The position numbers and the translations under genes were made by a program. From assembly GCF_029168945.1 (NCBI RefSeq), contig NC_083606.1:14224041-14288040 (forward strand): DNA of 64,000 nt. The letters are read 5' to 3'. Below are positions 25,999 through 36,936 of this stretch, piece by piece (the first letter of the stretch is position 1; each line of letters opens with the position of its first letter). The stretch is from Cannabis sativa (Eukaryota > Streptophyta > Magnoliopsida > Rosales > Cannabaceae). The notes beneath the pieces were generated by a model, which had not been told where the DNA came from, made no database searches, and saw only the letters and a list, made by a program, of their open reading frames with translations.

Positions 25999-26593
25999 GA
26001 GCAATTTGCGGCGAAACCCCCTTATGTTTTGATTTTTATACACTTAACCCCCTTATCTTTATTTTTGGTGGCAAAACCCCCTTATGTTTTAATTTTTATA
26101 CACTTAACCCCCTTATCTTTTTTTTTTTGTGGCAAAACTCCCTTATGTTTTAATTTTTATACACTTAACCCCTCTATCTTTTGTTTTGGTGGCAAAACCC
26201 TTCAGTTTACTTTTCTTTGCAAATTTAAAGTTTTAGTTAAATATTACCGTTAAATACTAACCGGATTACTACTGTATCGACTTCGAGGTTTTACCGTTAC
26301 ATATACAAAGGTGTATACAGTGGTCATCCAGTTGATATTTAACGGTAATATTTAACTGGCGTGTCAAATTTGCAAAGAAAAATAAACATAAAGGGGTTTT
26401 GCCACCAAAAAAAAAAATAAGGGGGTTAAGTGTATAAAAATTAAAACATAAGGGGGTTTTGCCACAAAAAAAAAGATAAGGGGGTTAAGTGTATAAAAAT
26501 TAAAACATAAGGGGATTTTGCCACCAAAAATAAAGATAAGGGGGTTAAGTGTATAAAAATCAAAACACAAGGAGGTTTCGTCGCAAATTGCTC
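25999..26593. mobile_element. Mutator-type MITE with tandem units in both arms
   Basis: 595-bp palindromic element with termini GAGCAATTTGCGGCGAAACC and, at the right, the complement ending GTCGCAAATTGCTC. It is flanked by a perfect 9-bp duplication ATTATTAAT (25990-25998 and 26594-26602), the length typical of Mutator-like elements. Each arm consists of about three tandem units of roughly 60 bp (GGCAAAACCCCCTTATG, TTTTTATACACTTAACCCCC, then a T-rich stretch). A central core of about 150 bp contains TTAACGGTAATATTTAACTGG. Open frames of 60-75 codons in the arms are repeat artefacts. Confidence 0.9.
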
Positions 26594-26928: not shown

Positions 26929-27450
26929 TAGGGGTGTTCGCGGTGCGGATGGTGCGATTTTTGACTATTTTTTCAAACCAACCCGCACATGTAGTTTTTC
27001 AAACCGCACCCGCACTGCAAACTTAAAAAATCGCAAAAACTGCACCGCAAAAAATGATGCGGTGCGGTGCGGTTTTTGCAGTTTGGACTATCACCAATAA
27101 TTAAACTATCACAAATACAACAAAGCTTGAGCAAGACTTGTCAAAAATACTTTAAGGTTTGAAAATAAATATGAAAAAAAAAAAATTAAATTTCAATAAT
27201 ACAATAATTAGTGGGCTTTGGGTTGGACATTCACATATTGGACCTAGCTAAATATAAAAATTGGTATTTTTATAATGTGCGGTGCGGTGCGGTTTGAACC
27301 GCATATTAATAATTTAAAACCGCAAACCGCATCGCACCTCGCGGTTTAAGAAAAATTCAAACCGCGACCGCACCGCAAAGAATTTCAAACCACATTTTTT
27401 GGCGGTGCGGTATGGTGCAGGCGGTTTGAACGGTTTGATGAATACCCCTA
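26929..27450. mobile_element. hAT-type MITE
   Basis: 522 bp with terminal inverted repeats TAGGGGTGTTCG and the right end GAATACCCCTA. It is flanked by a perfect 8-bp duplication GCAACGAT (26921-26928 and 27451-27458), diagnostic of hAT. Subterminal regions are packed with GGTGCGG/CCGCACC motifs in both orientations, as in many plant hAT MITEs. Confidence 0.92.
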
Positions 27451-27661
27451 GCAACGATATACCACATATGGAGATGCAAGAATCAACTGTTCTAGAATCA
27501 AACAACAGCACCAGTAGACACAGTTATACAGTGTATAAAGAAAGAAACCAAACATAGAATTCAAAGCTTGGAATAAAAAAAAATAGTACATGGAGATAAA
27601 GATTGGTTGGAAAGTTTGTAATTAAAAGTGTGCTGCTTGGAAGGGGCAGATAGATTGTAAA

Positions 27662-27745
27662 GGGGAAATTTCATATTTTGGCCCTAATAAAACACTCAAT
27701 ATCAAAATTTATACCTATTAATTTTTTGAACAAATTGATTCCTCT
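27662..27745 (+). repeat. MULE left terminal inverted repeat
   Basis: Begins GGGGAAATTTCATATTTTGG and continues through CCCTAATAAAACACTC and TATCAAAATTTATACC. It is the counterpart, reverse-complemented, of 36262-36346. The inner boundary is gradual. Confidence 0.75.
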
Positions 27746-28108
27746 AATTTGAAAAAGTTCCTAAAATACCCCTAAAATTAAATTTTCACTATCTCTCTGA
27801 CTTTCCCTCTCTCTCTGGCTCTCTGACTTTCCCTCTCTCTCGCTCAAAGACTTTCCCTCTCTCTCGCTCTCTTCACGAACCCACACGAACCAGACCAACG
27901 TACCCACGGCGTCGACCACGAAACCAACAAACCCACGCCGCCGTCGACCACCCACGAACCCAACCCCACGAACCAAACCCAATCGACGAACCGAGGAGAA
28001 ACTGCCGTCACCACCACGAGGAGAAACTGCCGTCGCCACCACGAGGAGAAACCGCCGTCACCACCCACGAGCAAAAACCGTCGCCTACACCACGAAATTC
28101 AGTCAAAG

Positions 28109-28773
28109 GTAAGATTTTTTTTTTAAAAAAATACATTTTTCATAGATTTGGATGCCAATTATTGCATGTTGTTGAGATTAGTGGATTTTGTGTAGCATTT
28201 GTGATCTTTAGGTGTAGTGTTTGAATGAAATCTGTGTAAATTACAGGATTATCGATGACATGTCAATAGGTTATCGATAGGATGTCGATAGATTGAGTGT
28301 CTGTTTGAATGTTACTGTAATTTGTATGTCGATAGGATATCGCCTGTATGTCGATAGGATGTCGACTGGTATTTTAAGAGTATTTCTGCCCTATATTGTC
28401 GACGACTTATCGACAGTATGTCGATGGTATGTCGATTAAATGAGCATGTTGATTGTTAGGTTGTATTGTCGACTGAATGTCGATTGTATGTTGACAGCAT
28501 GTCGATATATTGTGTAATTGTTATTTGTTTGAATTGTCGACTGAATGTCGACAGGATGTCGACATTTTGTCGACATGAAAGTATTTTCTCTGCTTTTGAT
28601 AATGTCGACATAATGTCGAGGGTATGTCGACATAATGTCGACATGTTTGTTTTGAAATTTTTGTGTGCTTACTGTTAGATAATGTCGACTGAATATCGAC
28701 ATGATGTCGATGTTATGTCGACCATTTTAAATTTTTTTAGCAGCTTTATTTATTTGTTTTTTTGTTTTTTCAG
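28109..28773 (+). other. Predicted 5' leader intron of the DUF1985 gene
   Basis: The donor AAAG|GTAAGATTTT is at 28108/28109. The acceptor, after a T-rich tract (TTTGTTTTTTCAG), is directly before the ATG at 28774. The pyrimidine-rich sequence at 27780-27880 upstream fits a plant 5' leader. The intron contains all of motif array 1. This is an inference from splice signals only. Confidence 0.45.
28251..28722 (+). repeat. Array 1: seven quartets of 11-bp-spaced TCGA motifs
   Basis: The motif is RTCGAY in an 11-bp unit of the form GTCGACNNNAT. Hexamer starts by quartet: 28251, 28262, 28273, 28284; 28328, 28339, 28350, 28361; 28398, 28409, 28420, 28431; 28468, 28479, 28490, 28501; 28536, 28547, 28558, 28569; 28604, 28615, 28626, 28637; 28684, 28695, 28706, 28717. 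Spacing inside each quartet is exactly 11 bp. Quartets start 68-80 bp apart. A few sites are mutated (28262 GTCAAT, 28339 ATCGCC, 28490 GTTGAC) yet keep the phase. The array sits just upstream of the DUF1985 start codon. Confidence 0.95.
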
Positions 28774-29914
28774 ATGGCTCCCAGACTCATTATTCCAGCA
28801 CCCGAGCATTTCACTGGCCGCGTCACATATAGGGGCACTGGAATTTTTGCAAAAATTAAAGCTCGGTTTGAGGAGTTCAACCTTAATAACACGGCGAAGG
28901 AAAGCCGTTTCGGGAGCTTCTGGAATGCCGTACCACTGACATTCTCCTCGGTGTTATTTCACCACTCGATGCTCCACAAAATGAAAGTGGATGCTCAGGA
29001 GGAGTTGAGGATGAGGTTTTATGTTGGTCGGAAGGAGGTCCGATTCGGGGTGCTGGAGTTTGCACTCATTACGGGTTTGGACTTCTCCTCGGGGCCAACA
29101 GAAGAGGAGAAGGCTGCGCAGGTCGCGAGCTCGGGGTCAGACCGATTGATCAACAAATATTTCAACCGGTCTGATAGTGTGAAGACAGAAGCACTCCAAC
29201 TTCAGTTCACAAACTGCCAGAACCCGGAAGACTTGTACAAGCTCGGCTTGTGCTTGTTTGTGGAGTCAGTGCTTCTGGGCCGCGAGGCCAACGCGCTGAT
29301 CACGCCTCACATCATTAGATATGTGGAAGACCTCGAGTTCTTCTTCCGGATTCCTTGGGGGAAGCACTCATTCGCCAGACTCATGCACTCGCTTCAGAAA
29401 GACATGTTGAAACGTAAGGCCAACTACGAGAAGAAGCCGAGTTCGGATGTTCAAGACGAGTGCAAATACACGGCATATGGCTTCGCACCCGCAAATTCAA
29501 TATTGGGCGTACGAGGCCATTTTGGAGGTTGGCAAGAGGTATGGCACGAACCACGGATTCGGTTCCCCAGATGCTTAGCCGGACGAGCAAAGGCGATATT
29601 GGGAAGAAAGACGTCGCCGCATTATTTTCTAGACGGGTATGATTTTCACTTATGTTCTGAATAATTATTTAACATAAATGCTTGTAATAAATGCTAAATG
29701 GTTTTATTTTGATATTTGTTAAACCATAAACAGAATCTGGAAGTGGTGAAGGGGCTACTTCCACGGACGCAGGAGGAGGCATTTGTGAGGACAATATCTT
29801 ACGATGGTGTGGAGAACCCGGTTGATGATGCCGTGGATGACACGTAGGCCGAGGCAGTAGTCGTACCGTAGACTCGTGTCCCGTACACTCGTGAAAGAGA
29901 CACTCGTGTACCAA
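28774..29914 (+). pseudogene. DUF1985-domain protein (N-terminal exons of the MULE ULP-like gene)
   Basis: ATG at 28774 directly follows a predicted intron acceptor. The frame MAPRLIIPAPEHFTGRVTYR continues to about 29490 and has the features of DUF1985 (PF09331) proteins: FSSVLFHHSMLHKM, ELRMRFYVGRKEVRFGVLEF, ALITGLDF, and FFRIPWGKHSFARLMHSL. Two frameshifts follow. Near 29490 the sequence moves to a frame reading QYWAYEAILEVGKRYGTNHG, and near 29565 to one reading SRTSKGDIGKKDVAALFSRR. A donor GG|GTATGATTTT lies at about 29638 and an acceptor AAACAG near 29733. The next exon reads NLEVVKGLLPRTQEEAFVRT, with a stop near 29846. DUF1985 occurs in ULP-like genes carried by plant MULEs and, as I recall, in VANC anti-silencing proteins of Arabidopsis VANDAL elements. 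This copy cannot make a full protein. Confidence 0.8.
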
Positions 29915-30015
29915 TTTCGGAACTTTTTTTATGTCTTTATTTTTTTTTGATTTTTTTTATATAGTGGAGGGTATATCGTATGCTTACCGTATTTTTTTGA
30001 TATATATTTTTTCAG

Positions 30016-30318
30016 GCCACTGCTTCAGAACCTCAGCCCAGTGCACCATCTGCATCAGGCGTTCGGGGTGCCGAGTACACTGATTTAGTGGCTCGGTTGG
30101 ATAGGATCGAGGGTGACACTCAGGGTCTGTATGCTGCTCATGTCGAGCTGAAGAAGGCATACGAGACCAGCCATGTAGAGCTGAAGGGTGGTCATAACGT
30201 AATTATGGAGCAGCTCAGACACATATTGGCCATGTTGAATCGTCCGCCAACGACAGCTTCAAAGACCGGAGGCCCCGGAGATCCATCTACCCCACCACCA
30301 CCGCTTCACCCCCGGTAG
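30016..30318 (+). pseudogene. Coiled-coil linker exon of the MULE ULP-like gene
   Basis: Preceded by a T-rich acceptor (TTTTTTCAG, ending 30015). It reads ATASEPQPSAPSASGVRGAE and then a heptad-like stretch, LVARLDRIEGDTQGLYAAHV...ELKKAYETSHVELKGG...IMEQLRHILAML, followed by a proline-rich tail to a stop at 30316. It lies between the DUF1985 part and the protease part, where ULP-like MULE genes usually have a low-complexity or coiled-coil linker. The stop is probably a frameshift effect, because acidic sequence (EEDEVFPDDYDPYEG) continues in another frame directly afterwards. Confidence 0.55.
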
Positions 30319-31569
30319 AAGAGGATGAGGTCTTCCCCGACGATTACGATCCTTATGAGGGAGCTCCGGCCGACTCCGATCGAGGCACAACCTCTTATCC
30401 ATGTACATGACACCGAGTCGCAGGGTGAGATTCGTCCATAGAGGCACAACCCGCAAGTGGTTAAGAGTCGGAAGAGGAAGAGAAAGCCTCCCGTATGGTT
30501 CGGTGACTATACGGAGATGAAGAGGAGACATAGGCCATCTTCGACTTTTGATCCCCGGAGCCACCTGGGATGAGAAATTGTTAACCACTTTCCGAAAGTG
30601 GTGTGTTGGACTCATTCCGAACCACCGACTTCGGATTTGAGAAGTGGTGATTACGGTCCAGGATTCTTTTGGATAATGCTCACACCAAAGGAATGGCTTA
30701 CGGTATGACGTAAGTAAAGTATTTTATAATATTACTTCACTTTACAACTTTATGTGCAATTAATATATTTTTTTGTGTAACTGACATTTCCGTTTATATG
30801 CAAGATATAGATGCAAAGAATGCATATGCCGAGGAGGCGACGCACCGACTATCCACTGACATTTCCTCAGAAGGGTATCATTCTCTCCACATTCGTGACC
30901 GCCATGATCAGCAGTGCATGGACGAGCCACAAGGGTCCGAGGAAAAACTTTAAATGGGAGGAATATATCCTGGACTACTGCACAGGGTTTCATAAGGTAT
31001 TGTTTTAGTAAGATTTTAAATGTTAATTGTTTGGGAAGATTATTATGGTTTGTTAATTGTTTCGTTGTTCTCCGTAATTACGTCCCAAGTCTTTGAGAGA
31101 TGGAGGGGTAACGAGTTTATTTACTTCGTTCGCACCTTCCCACGGCAAGACACCGGGTCACGCTGAAGTGGACATGTAGCCGTGGAAAATTAATGTCTAC
31201 GACCGTGATTCCGCCGTCCGTCATTGGACCGCCATGGAACCCATCTTGAAGGTTTGGTCGAACCGCCGCCCTCGCTAATCCTTGCAACCGGGGAATTTCC
31301 ACATAACAACCGCATCATGGCGTTAGCTAACGGTGACATCACGGTGCTTCCAAAAATGCACGCGACTCGAGCCACTCACGACTTAGTTCCGAAGTCGGCA
31401 ACTGTGTACATAGCGATAAAAAAGTACTATAGTATTAAAATATGTTTTACGTTAGATCGACTTTACATTTTATTTTGCATTTAGTGGTGATTGTGGCGTG
31501 TATTGCATTGAGTATGTGGAGCATCTCATGATGCAACGTGGATTGACCGATGTGACGCCGATCGGATAG
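30319..31569 (+). pseudogene. ULP1-like cysteine protease (C48) domain, frameshifted
   Basis: Pieces in changing frames follow the order of plant ULP-like proteins: an acidic segment; SRKRKRKPPVWFGDYTEMKR; FFWIMLTPKEWLT; LRRRRTDYPLTFPQKG..ILSTF, and KWEEYILDYCTGFHK. Then comes the peptidase core. A His codon (31151-31153, HRVTLKW, with the usual Trp after His replaced by Arg), an Asp (31201-31203, NVYDRD) and the nucleophile Cys (31492-31494, GDCGVYCIEYVEHLM) are all present, so the catalytic triad survives but in different frames. A stop is at 31567. In functional relatives this protease cleaves SUMO-type isopeptide bonds; here it is surely inactive. Some breaks may be introns rather than frameshifts. 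Confidence 0.75.
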
Positions 31570-34525
31570 CCATGTTTCGTCAACGGTGGTGTGTCGATTT
31601 ATTTTACCAAAATGTCGGTGATTATATGTGTAATTATTGGGACATTGTATATTTTGTGTAATTAACATTACGGTTATGTATATATAGATTTTCTTTTCGT
31701 TCAAATTTTGATAATTATACGTGGTTTCAAATATAAAATATCAACATTATTCAACAAAAATAACTATTAAACCTAAAAATAATTAAAATATTTGAAAAAT
31801 ATTCAACCTCAACAAAAATAACTATGACAAAATATGCATCATTACAATATATCAAATTTCCCAACGAATACGTACAAGACGCCTCAGATGCGGGCTTTGC
31901 ATGTTGCTCGTTGTGGCACGAAGCACCACGGCGGCAGCTTCGTGGTACGTAACCTTTTTTATCACCGGACGGAAACGGTTCTCCCGTCTTCTTCCAACCG
32001 TTGCTTTTTCTTGGACGACCTACGGGCTTCTTTTCCACAGGTACCCCAACTTTCATATTCTTGATGTGTTTTGGGAGAACCCAATCATCCTCGTCACCAG
32101 CGAGATTGATGGTATCATCGTAAATCTTCCTCCACGTTTCTTTTGAATAATAAGGTGAGCAAAGCGTGTACACACTTGTGTTCGTTTTCAATGCCGCGCA
32201 CATGCATGAAGGCAAGGGAGTTTCAATAACGTGAACACGCCGCAGTGCATGTTTTTTCAACTAGATTCACATCACCACCTCTTTCACCGTTAGGTCCCCT
32301 ACCAACGTTATACAAATTGGCTCCATTTCGTTGGACGCGCCTGTACCTTGCATTTTCATGAATTTTTGCCAAGTTTTTTTCGAAGAGCGTGGCCAAAGGG
32401 GTAGCACATTTGTCAGCATTTTCGAGGCGATCAGCGAACCACGATTGGAGTGTGAACTCGATAAATTCAACCAAAGTAGTTATTGGATATTTCCCGAACT
32501 CTTCGTGACACTATTGAAGCTTTCGGCGGCGTTGCTCGTCATGATGTTGTATCTATCGCCCAAACAATAAGGGTGAGCCCACTTCTCAAACCCTATACTC
32601 TCCACATATGCGGCGATGGCCGGATTCATCTTTCTAAGCTTCTCGAACTCTCTATCGCATTCGCCTTCGACCATGCGTAAGCAACATTATATATTTGGTT
32701 GTGAAAAGCATCGGTCTTGAATTTGGCGTTCACGTTCATAACAATGTGGTGATAGCATGCACAAGTGGACCGCTTCGGGAAAAACGAGTTCAACAAAGAT
32801 GATCAATGCTTTGATGCCTATCCGACACAAACACTAAGTTCTCAACCACGCCAATTGCTACCCTCAACTTCGTAAGAAATACGTCCAGAGTCGTTATTCT
32901 CACCGTCAACGATACCATAAGCAACCGGCAACAATTGGTTGTTCGCATCGTATGCCACAAAGAACTAACATTATACCGCCGTACTTCGTCTTCAAGAAGG
33001 TGCCATCGATACTCAAAACAGACGACAAAAAGAAAAGCCCCTTCTACATGCACCGAGTGATATAAAACAAGACTTGAACCGCTCATCCTCTAAGTACAAG
33101 TCGGTAATGGTACCGGATTCTTCGTTCCGCATGTACAAGTACCCAGAAGCTTCATGTATGAAAACTCGGGCGTACCCCTAGCATACGTAAGTCCCATCTC
33201 CCCGCACCTCCACGCCTTCACATAACTCATACCGATACCGTAGTTGTCAAACATGTCCCTCTCGTATGTCTTTAGCCTTGTACTTAGTTCCGTCTTGGGT
33301 GTACTTCCCCTTAATAAGGTGGCCAACTACCCATGGTGCCGCTTGACGGTGATCCGAACGTCTCGCATTCAAGTTACATGTGTGTTCATTGTGAAATACG
33401 GTTGACCTCAAAGTTGTCGAATGCATCTTCTTCCTCCCCCTCAATCTCCATTTACAATCTGGAGCCTTGCATGTAACGTACAACACATCGGTGGGATGAC
33501 TTCTTCACCATCCACTCGAAATTGTTATTAAGGGCAAACCTACCCACAACTTGTCTCGCTTCTTCCTTGTTTTCATAAAAATTACCAAGCTCTATCACCC
33601 CTGCTTCCTTACTTTGTAAACAAGTAGTTAGCTCATGATTTTCCATTATATCTTCCTTTGTCCACATGGGAGCTTTGAACTTGGTACAAACTTCGAAAGA
33701 GGAGAACGTTGAGAACGTTGCATGACGAGCATGTTCTTCGCCCGCCCGGTCGACTACTGCTAGTTCCAGGTGTAGTGCGATTTTCACTACGAGGTTGTCG
33801 TTCTCGCTGTGTACCTTGGTTACTCGGTACACACTCTAACCTCAACAATGGTCCCGCTACGGGTTCATCGACTGCTAAATCATGGTCATCGTCCATATTC
33901 AAATCTACAATAGGATCATTATTGTAGAAGGGTGTATCGAACTCTTCAAACTGATGAAATCCTGTCGCTTCTTGTTCTTGCCCTACATTGGTCGGAACAT
34001 CAAAATTGGTCGGAACCTCTAAATTGGCCGGAACCTCCTCATTCACACCAATCCCAACATCTGTTTCGGGAACCCAAGACCCTACCACACTCCGAGGGAG
34101 AGGATTAGTAGGCGGCGTAGGCTCCGAATTCCTAACTTTTCTCACCTTGGTCACGAATAATGGCATAAACTCTGTATTTGACATTGTTGCCCTCATCTCT
34201 AAAAACGTTCTCAGTTGGCGTTCTCTCTTAATAACCTCTGGCGCAACCATTTTTCCCTTCATGTACAAGGAACAAATCTCCAACTTTAAATCATACGCTA
34301 CCGGATCAACTTCCAACTCTTCATATAAAATTTGTCGCAGTTCTTGTAGGGTTGTCTCGGTTGTAATCGTCAACGTCAAGCCGCTATTTGCTTTGTAGAT
34401 CCAATTATAATTCTCACATAACCAAACACCATCGTACGATACAACAAGGAACACTTTGTCTCCTGCAATTGCAAACCAAAAAAACAAGGTGAGTAAAGGA
34501 AAAAACACCAAAAAAAAAATAAAAA

Positions 34526-34899
34526 TCGACATCCCATCGATATCTATAGACATAATGTCGAGAAGCACAACACCAGAAATTAGGGCACTGATTGTCGACA
34601 TTGTGTCGACATATTATCGACATACAATCGACAACAACAACAACCATGCTCGTCATCGACATACTATCGACATACCATCGACATTCAATCGACAATTAAA
34701 AACGGTTGCACATTAAATGTTAATAAATTTTACATACGTTCCCAACGACCCTTCCCAACTGAAACGTTGCATGTCAGACACGTGTCCTATCGACAACATA
34801 TCGACATGAAGTCGACATGTCGTCGACAAATGTGTTAGCAGTGACACTAAATTGGCATGTTGTCGATAAGATGTCGACATAGTATCGACATTCTGTCGA
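34526..34899 (-). repeat. Array 2: five quartets of 11-bp-spaced TCGA motifs
   Basis: TCGA starts by quartet: 34526, 34537, (34547, decayed to TAGA), 34558; 34595, 34606, 34617, 34628; 34656, 34667, 34678, 34689; 34790, 34801, 34812, 34823; 34863, 34874, 34885, 34896. On the plus strand units read ATCGACATACT, the reverse complement of the array 1 unit, so this array is inverted relative to array 1. It lies between the transposase exon 2 (minus) and the 109-aa gene (plus). The gap between the third and fourth quartets is about twice the usual period, as if one quartet had been lost. Confidence 0.95.
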
Positions 34900-34988
34900 T
34901 AAATACGCCATTTCATGCGTTTTTCCCTGTACAGTTACGCATTTAATGACCATTAAATTTTCATACATTCCCAACATTTTTACTGCTC

Positions 34989-34995
34989 TATAAAA
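34989..34995 (+). promoter_or_regulatory. Putative TATA box of the 109-aa gene
   Basis: CTATAAAAGC, 95 bp upstream of the ATG at 35084 and just downstream of array 2. The distance leaves about 60 nt of pyrimidine-rich 5' leader (CTCTTACTCTTAAAAATTTT). Confidence 0.6.
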
Positions 34996-35083
34996 GCAAA
35001 GGGAAATCTTATTCATAAGTGCTCTTGTATTCTACCTATCTCTTACTCTTAAAAATTTTCTCTTATTCTATTAAGTTTGAAAT

Positions 35084-35413
35084 ATGGCCCCAAGAAAGAA
35101 CGGCAAATTCCCCATCCTAACTCCTGAGGAGCTGAAGCAGGAGCCTGATGTTGGCATAGTTACTCCTGCAATGCAGAAAGTTTTGGACGCCGCTCGAGCT
35201 TTCAAAAGAGAGCGAAACGGTAACGAGTTCAGGTTCATGCAACTTGAAAGAGAATTTTGCAAAACTGGTGTATGGCCGGCTCCACCACCTGGGTTCCCCG
35301 AAGGATGCCGTCGTTGCAAACTGGGCATCTTCAACGGTAAACCGGTGAAGCCGGGAACATTATGCAAGTATTGCAAGGCTCACCCACAAGCCAAAGAATT
35401 TAAAAAAAAATAA
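35084..35413 (+). CDS. 109-aa basic protein with a four-cysteine zinc-ribbon-like motif
   Basis: Intact frame, MAPRKNGKFPILTPEEL to a lysine-rich C-terminus and TAA. Cys75-x2-Cys78 and Cys94-x2-Cys97, with His100 after the second pair, look like a small zinc ribbon (CRRCKLG and CKYCKAH). An Arg/Lys-rich segment (AFKRERNGNEFR) precedes it, and a PAPPPGFP stretch joins the halves. It has its own TATA box and lies between motif arrays 2 and 3, on the strand opposite the predicted long intron of the transposase. I do not recognise the family. Size, basic charge and zinc ligands suggest a DNA- or RNA-binding accessory protein of the MULE; that is inference. It is the only unbroken gene in this element, although a short gene is also less likely to be hit. 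Confidence 0.7.
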   Translation: MAPRKNGKFPILTPEELKQEPDVGIVTPAMQKVLDAARAFKRERNGNEFRFMQLEREFCKTGVWPAPPPGFPEGCRRCKLGIFNGKPVKPGTLCKYCKAHPQAKEFKKK

Positions 35414-35589
35414 TTTCTTATGTTATGGTTTGTGGGTTTTATTTAATGTTTTTTTTTTTAATTTTTATGAACTTTTATTTTCTGTTTTTTTTTTTTTTTA
35501 TGTTTTTTTTTTGTTATTTTTAATGAACTTTATTTTCTGTTAATGTTATGTTTATGTTTATGTTTTATCCACGGTATTTTTCCATTGCA

Positions 35590-35836
35590 TCGATATTTTA
35601 TCGACATCATGTCGACAAAATATCGACAACTTCTCAAAAACAACAAAAATGCTTGTTGTCGACATTCTGTCGACAAACATGTCGACAAAATGTCGACAAA
35701 TAGTTAATCCCAAAGTTGGTTGCATGATGTCGACAACATGTCGACATAACGTCGACATAACGTCGATAATGGTCATCACTGACCTTTCCTTTATAATCAT
35801 CGACAAACCATCGACATATCATCGACATATCATCGA
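35590..35836 (-). repeat. Array 3: four quartets of 11-bp-spaced TCGA motifs
   Basis: TCGA starts: 35590, 35601, 35612, 35623; 35659, 35670, 35682, 35693; 35730, 35741, 35752, 35763; 35800, 35811, 35822, 35833. Only one interval (35670 to 35682) is 12 rather than 11 bp. Quartets start 69, 71 and 70 bp apart. Orientation is as in array 2 and opposite to array 1. It sits about 0.5 kb inside the right terminal repeat. Confidence 0.95.
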
Positions 35837-36261
35837 TAACACTGGAAAACCCAGAAATCAACTGAAAACCAGATCTGCCAGATCTCAACAATTTCAGACC
35901 AAAAAACAGCAGTTCCAACAATAAACACACGTATAACAATTTTAAACTACATAAAGTCAAACAAAATGCTTAAAATACAACTTACCCATTATAATGGTGT
36001 AAGATTCTTGAGTGATGTTGTATTGTGCTTCGGTTTTCCACCAACACCCACCGAGAAAACAACCATGCAACAGCAAATAAAGAGAGTGGGACGGATTTCA
36101 GCTTCGGTTTTTCATAAATTTTTCAATTTTTTCCTAGAGAGAGAGAGTGGTGCACGAGAGAGAGGGAAGAGGGAAGAGAGAGAGAGAGAAATACACTTTC
36201 AGATTTTAGCTTTTTTTTTTTTTTTTAAAAAAAAAAATGTTAAAATGGGAAGTTCATGTAA

Positions 36262-36346
36262 TTAATGGACTAAATTTGTACAAATTATAAAGGGGTATAA
36301 ATTTTGATATAGGTTGTATTATTAGGGTCAAAAATTGAAATTTCCC
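36262..36346 (-). repeat. MULE right terminal inverted repeat
   Basis: On the minus strand it reads GGGAAATTTCAATTTTTGAC, then CCCTAATAATACAACC and TATCAAAATTTATACC. A CT-rich leader (GA-rich on plus, 36137-36190) follows inside, mirroring the arrangement at the left end. Confidence 0.75.
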
Positions 36347-36936
36347 TTATAAAATGATAAACATCTTGTTAGCCAATAGTAATACTTTTTGGTATCCGGT
36401 GCCAGTCGAGTTTCACCTCAGCAGACAGTAGTAGTAGTAGTATAATCCACCTTCCTGAGAGCGCGTGGTACCATATTTTTCGCTTAATAAACGGACAGAT
36501 CTGAAACTGAGGGTCCCACAACATTGCCCACACTACGGTGACCATCACCCTTAGATCCAGTAGGTTTCATCCTAGCCGCACATACATTCATTATGACTTT
36601 TCTTTTCTCATTACACAAAATTTACAATTACATTACATGATCTGTCTATGTATATAAAAATACAAGAGATATTAATAATAAACTAATTATTATTTCGTTA
36701 TTATTTTCTATTCTGATCGGATCAAAATCAAATGTAGTCAGCTTTTCAAGTAGAGCTTGTATTATTATTATTTTAAATAAAATCAAAAGCAGGGTAGGAA
36801 TGAGTAATCTGTAACTTTAGGTCCCAATATTCTTCTTGGGATTGGTAAAACTATTTTTTATTTTCTTATTTTTTTTTTATTTTTTTAAATCCCAACAAAA
36901 TAAAAGAAAAAGAAAAAAGAAACCCTTCATTTCCCC
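36347..36936 (+). promoter_or_regulatory. Upstream region of MIR396a
   Basis: About 590 bp between the MULE end and the MIR396a TATA box. It contains GGTCCCAC at 36512-36519, which fits the class I TCP consensus GGNCCCAC, and a second GGTCCCA near 36819. No coding frame is present. Confidence 0.5.

Follow-up and report, generated by a model that had tools for sequence, protein, structure and literature searches.

The window, a stretch of 64,000 nucleotides of the Cannabis sativa genome, holds a MULE whose three arrays of short oriented sites, set four at a time at 11-bp intervals, are probably the cis-acting targets of a VANC-like anti-silencing system, in which both the binding and the demethylation are what we infer. 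The observed basis of this reading is the motif, its phase, its orientation, the constraint upon it and the homology to VANC21, together with a gene-less copy that retains the sites and a sister clade whose motif has changed while the layout is similar.

The element (Table 1) is a MULE. Target-site duplications of MULEs measure about 8-11 bp, and here the duplication is 8 bp. Of the 16 stretches with both ends located, 14 have it exact, one has it with one mismatch and one, the window copy, with two (TTGTAAAG / TTATAAAA). The left and right inverted-repeat arms are 77% complementary over 108 nt. Whilst the DUF1985 and transposase frames of the window copy are both broken, the transposase frame of another copy, L011, is open over 862 aa, with MULE (2.9e-26), DBD_Tnp_Mut (5.4e-8) and SWIM (9.8e-8) matches, i.e. 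a transposase with MuDR DNA-binding and SWIM domains. The VANDAL family is reported to have a 9-bp duplication (PMC6446971), and because ours is 8 bp we do not file the element as a VANDAL. Its arms are unlike the Arabidopsis type, in which inverted repeats are described as absent or short and degenerate, and fall inside the 46-174 bp given for some members of the VANDAL group.

Table 1. Features of the element, in window coordinates.
Feature	Position	Strand	Remarks
MULE element	27663..36346	.	ends GGGAAATTTC...GAAATTTCCC
Left terminal inverted repeat arm	27654..27761	+	108 nt; few flanking bases included
Predicted 5'-UTR intron, DUF1985 gene	28109..28773	+	contains array 1; splice-site conservation
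Array 1	28249..28722	+	seven quartets, WTRTCGAY in + orientation; 25/28 slots TCGA
DUF1985 exon (VANC-like)	28774..29664	+	PF09331, E 4.2e-20
C48 (Ulp1-like) protease exon remnant (putative)	31483..31560	+	SGDCGVYCIEYVEHLM
Degenerate MULE transposase gene	31878..34462	-	window range inferred from shared acceptor position
Predicted 5'-UTR intron, transposase gene	34463..35985	-	contains arrays 2 and 3; splice-site conservation
Array 2	34525..34902	-	five quartets, first irregular; motif in - orientation
109-aa ORF	35084..35413	+	CxxC-x15-CxxC
Array 3	35589..35839	-	four quartets; motif in - orientation
Right terminal inverted repeat arm	36248..36355	-	few flanking bases included

A sequence-only reading of this DNA had counted 64 positions in sixteen quartets. 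The positions hold, in groups of 7 + 5 + 4, with intact TCGA in 60 of the 64 slots (25, 19 and 16 in arrays 1, 2 and 3); fifteen of the sixteen groups are four-slot runs, but array 2 begins with an irregular one (34526, 34537, then 34558). The 11-bp step, said to have almost no exception, is borne out by 39 pairs within the arrays exactly 11 bp apart, compared with an average of 0.18 and a maximum of 2 such pairs in 100 dinucleotide shuffles of the whole element; a single step, from 35670 to 35682, measures 12 bp. The autocorrelation of TCGA has the anticipated peaks at 11, 22, 33 and about 70 bp, mutation at three slots of array 1 has not shifted the phase, and arrays 2 and 3 are, as had been noted, inverted relative to array 1. 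The supposed quartet period of about 70 bp is present as a peak, but this spacing is far looser than the 11-bp step: among the last-to-first quartet gaps below 150 bp in 21 copies (n=285), 126 are 35-38 bp, and others include 27-28, 40, 42-44, 47-49, 58 and 101 bp. The 11-bp spacing fits an arrangement in which the four sites would face one side of the DNA.

The phase is kept in all 20 further copies examined, full copies picked by hand at 92-99% protein identity from 150 scored of 452 candidates (eight loci were not taken as separate copies: L001-L006, which overlap the window and L009-L013, and L007 and L008, which do not). Runs of sites number 14 to 19 per copy, and of the 354 in all, four slots exactly are found in 286, three in 28, two in 38 and more than four in 2. 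Across the genome, triplets of phased sites number 6,328 at the 11-bp step (3169+3159) and 0 at 10 bp, 12 bp and in the reversed controls. One copy of about 1 kb (L029), with no ORF above 87 aa, ends like the family's and an 8-bp duplication in its flanks, still has phased sites in four runs of 3-4; L030 and L032/L033 have their arrays partly within long inverted repeats.

The arrays lie within the predicted first introns of the two genes, and the orientation of the motif follows each gene. The acceptor of the DUF1985-gene intron (CAG|ATGG) is found in 20 of 21 copies, and 18 of these 20 also have, at the distance expected, a donor-like GGTAA (it is absent from L024 and L026; L019 is the copy without the acceptor). 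For the transposase-gene intron, inside which the 109-aa ORF lies on the opposite strand, the donor is present in 20 and the acceptor in 21 of 21 copies.

TCGA, the motif originally named, is the core of a larger unit, an oriented 8-mer, WTRTCGAY, with three free bases, one per 11 bp. The phased sites are apparently kept by selection. Between copies, the core positions of arrays 2 and 3 show 8 substitutions in 3495 cells, and the core is about tenfold less variable than its neighbours (8/2795 vs 533/20462); these counts cover sites with a TCGA majority state in arrays 2 and 3, and the cells come from related copies and are not independent events. At the degenerate positions, read in motif orientation, all 25 changes at R and all 18 at Y conform to the code, as do 17 of the 18 at W. 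A stricter set, which leaves out 230 of 714 cells, gives 5 core substitutions in 2420 and 31/31 changes obeying the code; counted by distinct events, it gives 5 core events over 170 columns and 14/14 conforming changes at R, Y and W, where other non-coding columns, over all cells and not the reduced set, have 0.25 events per column.

The element's DUF1985 protein, judged by its sequence, is related to Arabidopsis VANC21 (PDB 9lnj/9lnk; E 5.7e-7 as a single sequence, 1.6e-14 as profile A3), the last part of the exon being out of frame in alignment with its relatives; DUF287 was not found in this exon nor in P0006, P0011 or P0014. A remnant with SGDCGVYCIEYVEHLM, which we take to be a C48 (Ulp1-like) protease motif, probably belongs to the same gene. 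A C48 domain occurs in the related Cannabis protein P0014, and in sister copies the C48 part of that protein lies downstream of DUF1985; the window pieces tried gave no Pfam match for the remnant. Clade B DUF1985 is 55% identical to clade A over 170 residues, and of its 5 loci found, the 4 examined keep TCGAY, mostly with spacings that are multiples of 11 bp. In clade C, 47% identical to clade A, the base before CGA has changed: L039 has GCGAY groups, as have 13 of 14 upstream pieces, and the four-site groups are less strict, with steps of 10, 11 or 12 bp. Exact GCGAYAT triplets number 34 genome-wide (0 in the reversed control), 28 of them at most 1.7 kb from a DUF1985 match. In k-mer scans of ten other DUF1985 loci, eight (L034, L035, L037, L038, L040-L043) had no site array within 4.4 kb, L037 having T-rich 116-bp repeats only, and L057, chosen as a possible clade C member, had no array. 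AlphaFold models were too poor and went unused: mean pLDDT was 42.6 for the DUF1985 protein (P0006 and six other rows) and 53.1 for the 109-aa protein.

We posit that the DUF1985 protein of the element would recognise the 8-bp WTRTCGAY, that four sites 11 bp apart would bring four protein copies onto nearly one helix face, and that each quartet would be bound as one cooperative unit of about 41 bp. With this many runs per copy, the density of sites could make binding element-specific; the bound protein may then remove DNA methylation, or block it, in the neighbourhood of the two genes' first introns, which would leave the element expressed, mobile and free of host silencing. Three features are those of a VANC-type system: motif arrays of one orientation and high density within non-coding parts of the element, a DUF1985 protein homologous to VANC21, and a motif that varies among relatives (TCGAY in clades A and B vs GCGAY in clade C). 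The last of these fails to single out DUF1985, because the transposase presumably diverges along with it between clades. Both the 109-aa and the DUF1985 proteins had been put forward for binding assays; the latter, as a relative of VANC21, is the better candidate binder, and we rejected the former, which has no match in Pfam or PDB. Its ORF, with 150 scored genome matches (of 452 candidates), some with stops, is under weak constraint only, since a crude codon count gives 18 synonymous changes of 213 possible and 36 non-synonymous of 768, a ratio of 0.55. The notion of a designed platform for an element-encoded protein thus survives in its second half, as the best-supported reading; considering that some copies have recently duplicated whole quartets, the platform itself speaks of amplification plus selection, not design. 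A more tentative proposal, plausible without being one we would rely on, is that four DUF1985 protomers on 11-bp-phased sites form a reader of fixed geometry, the base code of the site drifting with the protein between clades whilst the four-site scaffold stays. If so, sequence-specific anti-silencing would be an old plant MULE strategy beyond the Brassicaceae, its architecture conserved and its specificity free to change.

Could the quartets instead be binding sites of the element's MULE transposase, for synapsing the ends in transposition, as the subterminal repeats of Spm/En are? We consider this unlikely, although it would account for quartets kept in the gene-less L029 with its intact ends and 8-bp duplication, and for arrays at both element ends that point inward; indeed, the arrays partly in long inverted repeats in L030 and L032/L033 fit a transposase-binding role too. 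Against it, in this family 0.5 to 1.8 kb separates the arrays from the ends, their place being in predicted introns and outside the inverted repeats, clades B and C also have arrays adjoining the DUF1985 exon, and we know of no comparable array for the MuDR transposase. Multiple transposase-binding sites in long inverted repeats have been reported for Galileo (PMC3688188), a precedent in its favour.

Perhaps host factors read the sites, through intron-mediated enhancement near the transcription start or as auxin response factors, which we hold to be rather improbable. Both array sets do lie in predicted promoter-proximal introns in sense orientation, and TGTCGA resembles an AuxRE, the DR5 reporter likewise being an 11-bp direct repeat. 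However, enhancement is not known to us to need strict 11-bp spacing or four-slot groups, auxin response factors should not tolerate the A that R accepts (TATCGA), the gene-less L029 retains its phased sites, and a fixed host factor leaves the changed base before CGA in the sister clade unexplained. In support of enhancement, expression is reported to rise with an intron that contains TTNGATYTG in 11 copies (PMC6760150); in the literature on auxin elements with TGTCGA, that string was absent among the matches listed.

It is very improbable that the arrays are a functionless by-product of tandem duplication of a 70-bp unit. Whole quartets have indeed been duplicated recently in L009, L012, L019 and L026 (spacer identity up to 1.0; pairs above 0.7 identity in 2/28, 2/28, 4/36 and 3/21), but no array 1 quartets have in the window, L010 or L011 (0/21 each). 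The window's 37-bp spacers are 28.75% identical vs 28.78% expected from composition and its motifs 79% alike in the same comparison, in which some spacers contain the tail of the preceding quartet and one of 15 quartets has a 12-bp step that puts its last slots out of register. That spacers would not be conserved like the motifs was thus rightly foreseen, a plain tandem origin is largely refuted for the window copy, and the roughly tenfold lower variability of the core likewise speaks against a by-product. Least credible is a DNA-structure device in which 11-bp periodic steps bend DNA or exclude nucleosomes with no specific protein. The spacing is close to one helical turn, but such a device would not be expected to show an oriented 8-base code under base-specific constraint, A/T-only changes among it, and on that constraint we reject it.

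Among known systems, Kaonashi-type MULEs carry Ulp1/C48 genes, as the Cannabis MULE carries a putative C48 protease gene; we know of no phased site arrays in them. Spm/En and Ac have subterminal transposase- or TNPA-binding repeats, TNPA being also linked to demethylation, and the Cannabis element is like them in its many short-motif copies inside the ends, unlike them in having these sites in introns and not near the ends; we know of no helical-phase quartets in their repeats. Phased quartets were absent among the matches listed from the literature on phased or subterminal transposase-binding arrays, the nearest being Galileo (PMC3688188).

With VANDAL21/VANC21 and VANDAL6/VANC6 of Arabidopsis, as described (PMC5735166, PMC10398659), the element shares a MULE with a transposase and a DUF1985 protein, a dense short motif in a single orientation in non-coding DNA including introns, a motif varying among relatives and sites gained in tandem. 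VANC21 is presented as a transposon-encoded anti-silencing protein binding short motifs, its YAGTATTAY arrayed in one orientation in non-coding regions that include the introns of VANC21 and VANB21 and the region upstream of VANA21 (PMC5735166); its crystal structure is mentioned, as unpublished, in a meeting report. The Cannabis element differs in setting its sites in fours at 11 bp (none of '11 bp', 'periodic', 'spacing' or 'helical' occurs in the main text of PMC5735166), in its WTRTCGAY vs the published YAGTATTAY and AGTTGTCC/AC of VANC21 and VANC6, in its 108-nt inverted repeats and 8-bp duplications, in its 109-aa ORF, and in a C48 protease accompanying DUF1985, beside which no DUF287 was found. 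Should the anti-silencing reading be right, transposon anti-silencing would extend to the hemp family, and these sites would offer targeted demethylation an array of natural origin, very dense and coded by orientation. That VANC proteins recognise long targets via a short motif and yet change specificity has been called enigmatic (PMC5735166); this puzzle of VANC specificity becomes directly testable in a genome that combines two site codes with several DUF1985 clades and exactly phased sites in the thousands.

The sequence-only reading had described phased quartets of TCGA, and this layout holds: 64 slots fall into 16 groups in three arrays, the exceptions being the irregular opening group of array 2 and a single 12-bp step within array 3, with arrays 2 and 3 inverted relative to array 1 by motif orientation. 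Within the limits first drawn for arrays 1, 2 and 3 lie 25, 19 and 16 intact TCGA, respectively. Across the element, 39 pairs stand exactly 11 bp apart (mean 0.18, maximum 2 in dinucleotide shuffles of the whole element), together with all the further peaks that had been anticipated (22, 33 and about 70 bp). The phase is shared by other family members: in 21 full copies, comprising the window copy and 20 others hand-picked over 92-99% protein identity, 840 of 884 neighbouring TCGA pairs at most 16 bp apart are spaced by exactly 11 bp. What needs amending is the motif itself, as in these copies TCGA is the core of a larger oriented motif of 8 bp, W-T-R-T-C-G-A-Y, after which come three linker bases that are almost free. 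Among their 354 runs of at least two sites, 286 have four slots, 28 three, 38 two, and one each five and six. Genome-wide (770.7 Mb, 18 contigs), motif triplets at 11-bp spacing number 3169 and 3159 on the two strands; reversed-pattern triplets at this spacing, and motif triplets at 10 or 12 bp, are absent.

Motif bases are shared on average at 79% among 15 quartets of the window element, whilst its 37-bp spacers are 28.75% identical against 28.78% predicted from composition, and its linkers 34% against 29% expected. With motifs alike and spacers at composition level, the window arrays are therefore not the recent amplification of one 70-bp unit, which had been raised as a possibility. Constraint is also visible between copies. 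In the core TCGA columns of arrays 2 and 3, 8/2795 cells differ, compared with 187/5430 between quartets, 346/15032 in other non-coding DNA and 150/6930 in the 109-aa ORF. CpG, which in methylated transposons usually mutates more readily than any other dinucleotide, is kept in 672/679 cells inside phased sites and in 429/454 elsewhere in non-coding DNA. Changes at degenerate positions, read in motif orientation, stay within the code (R 25/25, Y 18/18, W 17/18). Repeat units that swap could give the same appearance of code-conforming changes, and we therefore made a stricter set by dropping the 230 of 714 cells with differing flanking linkers; here 31/31 changes at degenerate positions conform, and the 2420 core cells hold 5 changes, each of them C to T or G to A. 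The three linker bases of arrays 2 and 3 vary by 5-7% across the 21 copies, about twice other non-coding DNA, perhaps because units exchange sequence with one another.

Array 1 differs in quartet number among copies. Of the seven copies scored, L009, L012, L019 and L026 carry recently duplicated quartets, with spacer identity up to 1.0, and the window copy, L010 and L011 carry none. VANDAL targets, too, are described as gaining sites in tandem (PMC5735166).

Features of the element in the window
Feature	Position	Motif orientation	Remarks
MULE element	27663-36346		inverted repeats and 8-bp target duplication
Array 1	28249-28722	+	
Array 2	34525-34902	-	
Array 3	35589-35839	-	
109-aa ORF	35084-35413		CxxC-x15-CxxC; antisense in the transposase's predicted first intron

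Both ends were located in 16 stretches; in 14 of them the target duplication is exact, L014 has one mismatch and the window copy two. Decay has broken the transposase frames of the window copy and put its DUF1985 exon out of frame near the end; in the sister copy L011 the transposase frame is open (862 aa) and encodes MULE, DBD_Tnp_Mut and SWIM domains. The plus-strand gene encodes DUF1985 and, judging from the Cannabis protein P0014, probably also has a C48 protease exon. Array 1 is flanked by a donor-like GGTAA and by an acceptor directly 5' of the DUF1985 start codon (acceptor in 20/21 copies, donor in 18 of those 20), and arrays 2 and 3 by a minus-strand donor (20/21) and acceptor (21/21) upstream of the transposase frame; both array sets therefore lie in predicted first introns, and the motifs point in the direction of each gene. 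The first ~110 residues of the P0014 gene model align in sister copies partly to array 1 and partly to the DUF1985 exon start, and array sequence may thus be treated as protein-coding in this public model. The 109-aa ORF, 98-99% identical in about 20 other genome places, has no known domain. Outside the element, a short GCGGTGCGGTTT-like sequence, read by eye, is repeated at 27000-27430, just to its left, and two inverted 60-bp tandem arrays at 26010-26200 and 26384-26578 are perhaps the ends of another element.

We compared five stretches (L029-L033) whose triplets lie outside typical copies; DUF1985, 109-aa and transposase proteins had no match in them save DUF1985 in L031. L029 is gene-less and about 1 kb, shares its ends with the window copy, shows an 8-bp duplication and has its sites in four phased runs of 3-4; L030, a short stretch, contains arrays and lacks a long ORF; L032 and L033 (G000:C1:13381500-13394500) form an 11.6-kb element whose 644-bp inverted repeats hold part of its arrays. 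L031 belongs with L058-L060 to clade B, its DUF1985 being 55% identical to P0006 of the window family's clade A over 170 residues; in the 4 clade B loci examined, out of 5 found, TCGAY sites are retained, mostly spaced by multiples of 11 bp. In clade C (L039 and L044-L056; DUF1985 47% identical) the code is TTnRCGAYnT, with 191 GCGAY against 20 TCGAY in 14 pieces. GCGAY sites occur in 13 of these 14 and are absent from L057; they stand mostly in fours, at steps of 10, 11 or 12 bp, the groups spanning 32 to 34 bp, with one irregular group in the majority row of the alignment. Here, therefore, G or A has replaced T before CGA, R is looser and the spacing of sites is less regular. Genome-wide there are 34 exact GCGAYAT triplets, 28 of them at most 1.7 kb from a DUF1985 match, and the reversed control gives 0. 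Ten loci taken from a DUF1985 family search (4.4 kb each, k-mer scans) include the clade C locus L039 and L036 (G000:C1:4632668-4637078, reversed; DUF1985 about 26% identical), where about 91-bp tandem repeats just upstream carry ACGACC at 10, 21 and 31 bp with conserved spacers, a possible third site code. The other eight show no site arrays in their 4.4 kb; one, L037, has T-rich 116-bp repeats.

Most simply, the DUF1985 protein would recognise WTRTCGAY at four sites together, all on one helical face. B-form DNA makes a turn every 10.5 bp, so that an 11-bp step rotates each site by about 17 degrees and the quartet by about 51 degrees; 'one face' is therefore a reasonable term. That runs seldom exceed four slots suggests a unit of four protomers. 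On sequence alone, the transposase or host factors may instead be what binds the quartets.

Reading by the DUF1985 protein would, by analogy, give an anti-silencing system its sequence specificity. The DUF1985 exon matches VANC21, the anti-silencing protein of Arabidopsis VANDAL21 (PDB chain 9lnj/9lnk; E 5.7e-7 as a single sequence), and a seven-sequence profile does so at E 1.6e-14 over 219 positions. VANC21 is described as binding YAGTATTAY in vivo and in vitro, drastically less after single-base motif changes, and as localising with motif density in one orientation (PMC5735166); target elements lose DNA methylation on VANC expression (PMC5735166; PMC10398659). In the passages on VANC that were consulted and in the literature searches run here, we found no description of strict helical phasing in quartets or of a code change with kept layout, and against that background these two features would set the present family apart. 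The target duplication is 8 bp here and 9 bp in VANDAL, and we therefore do not file the window element as a VANDAL; its likeness to the VANDAL/VANC system is nevertheless one of the same kind.
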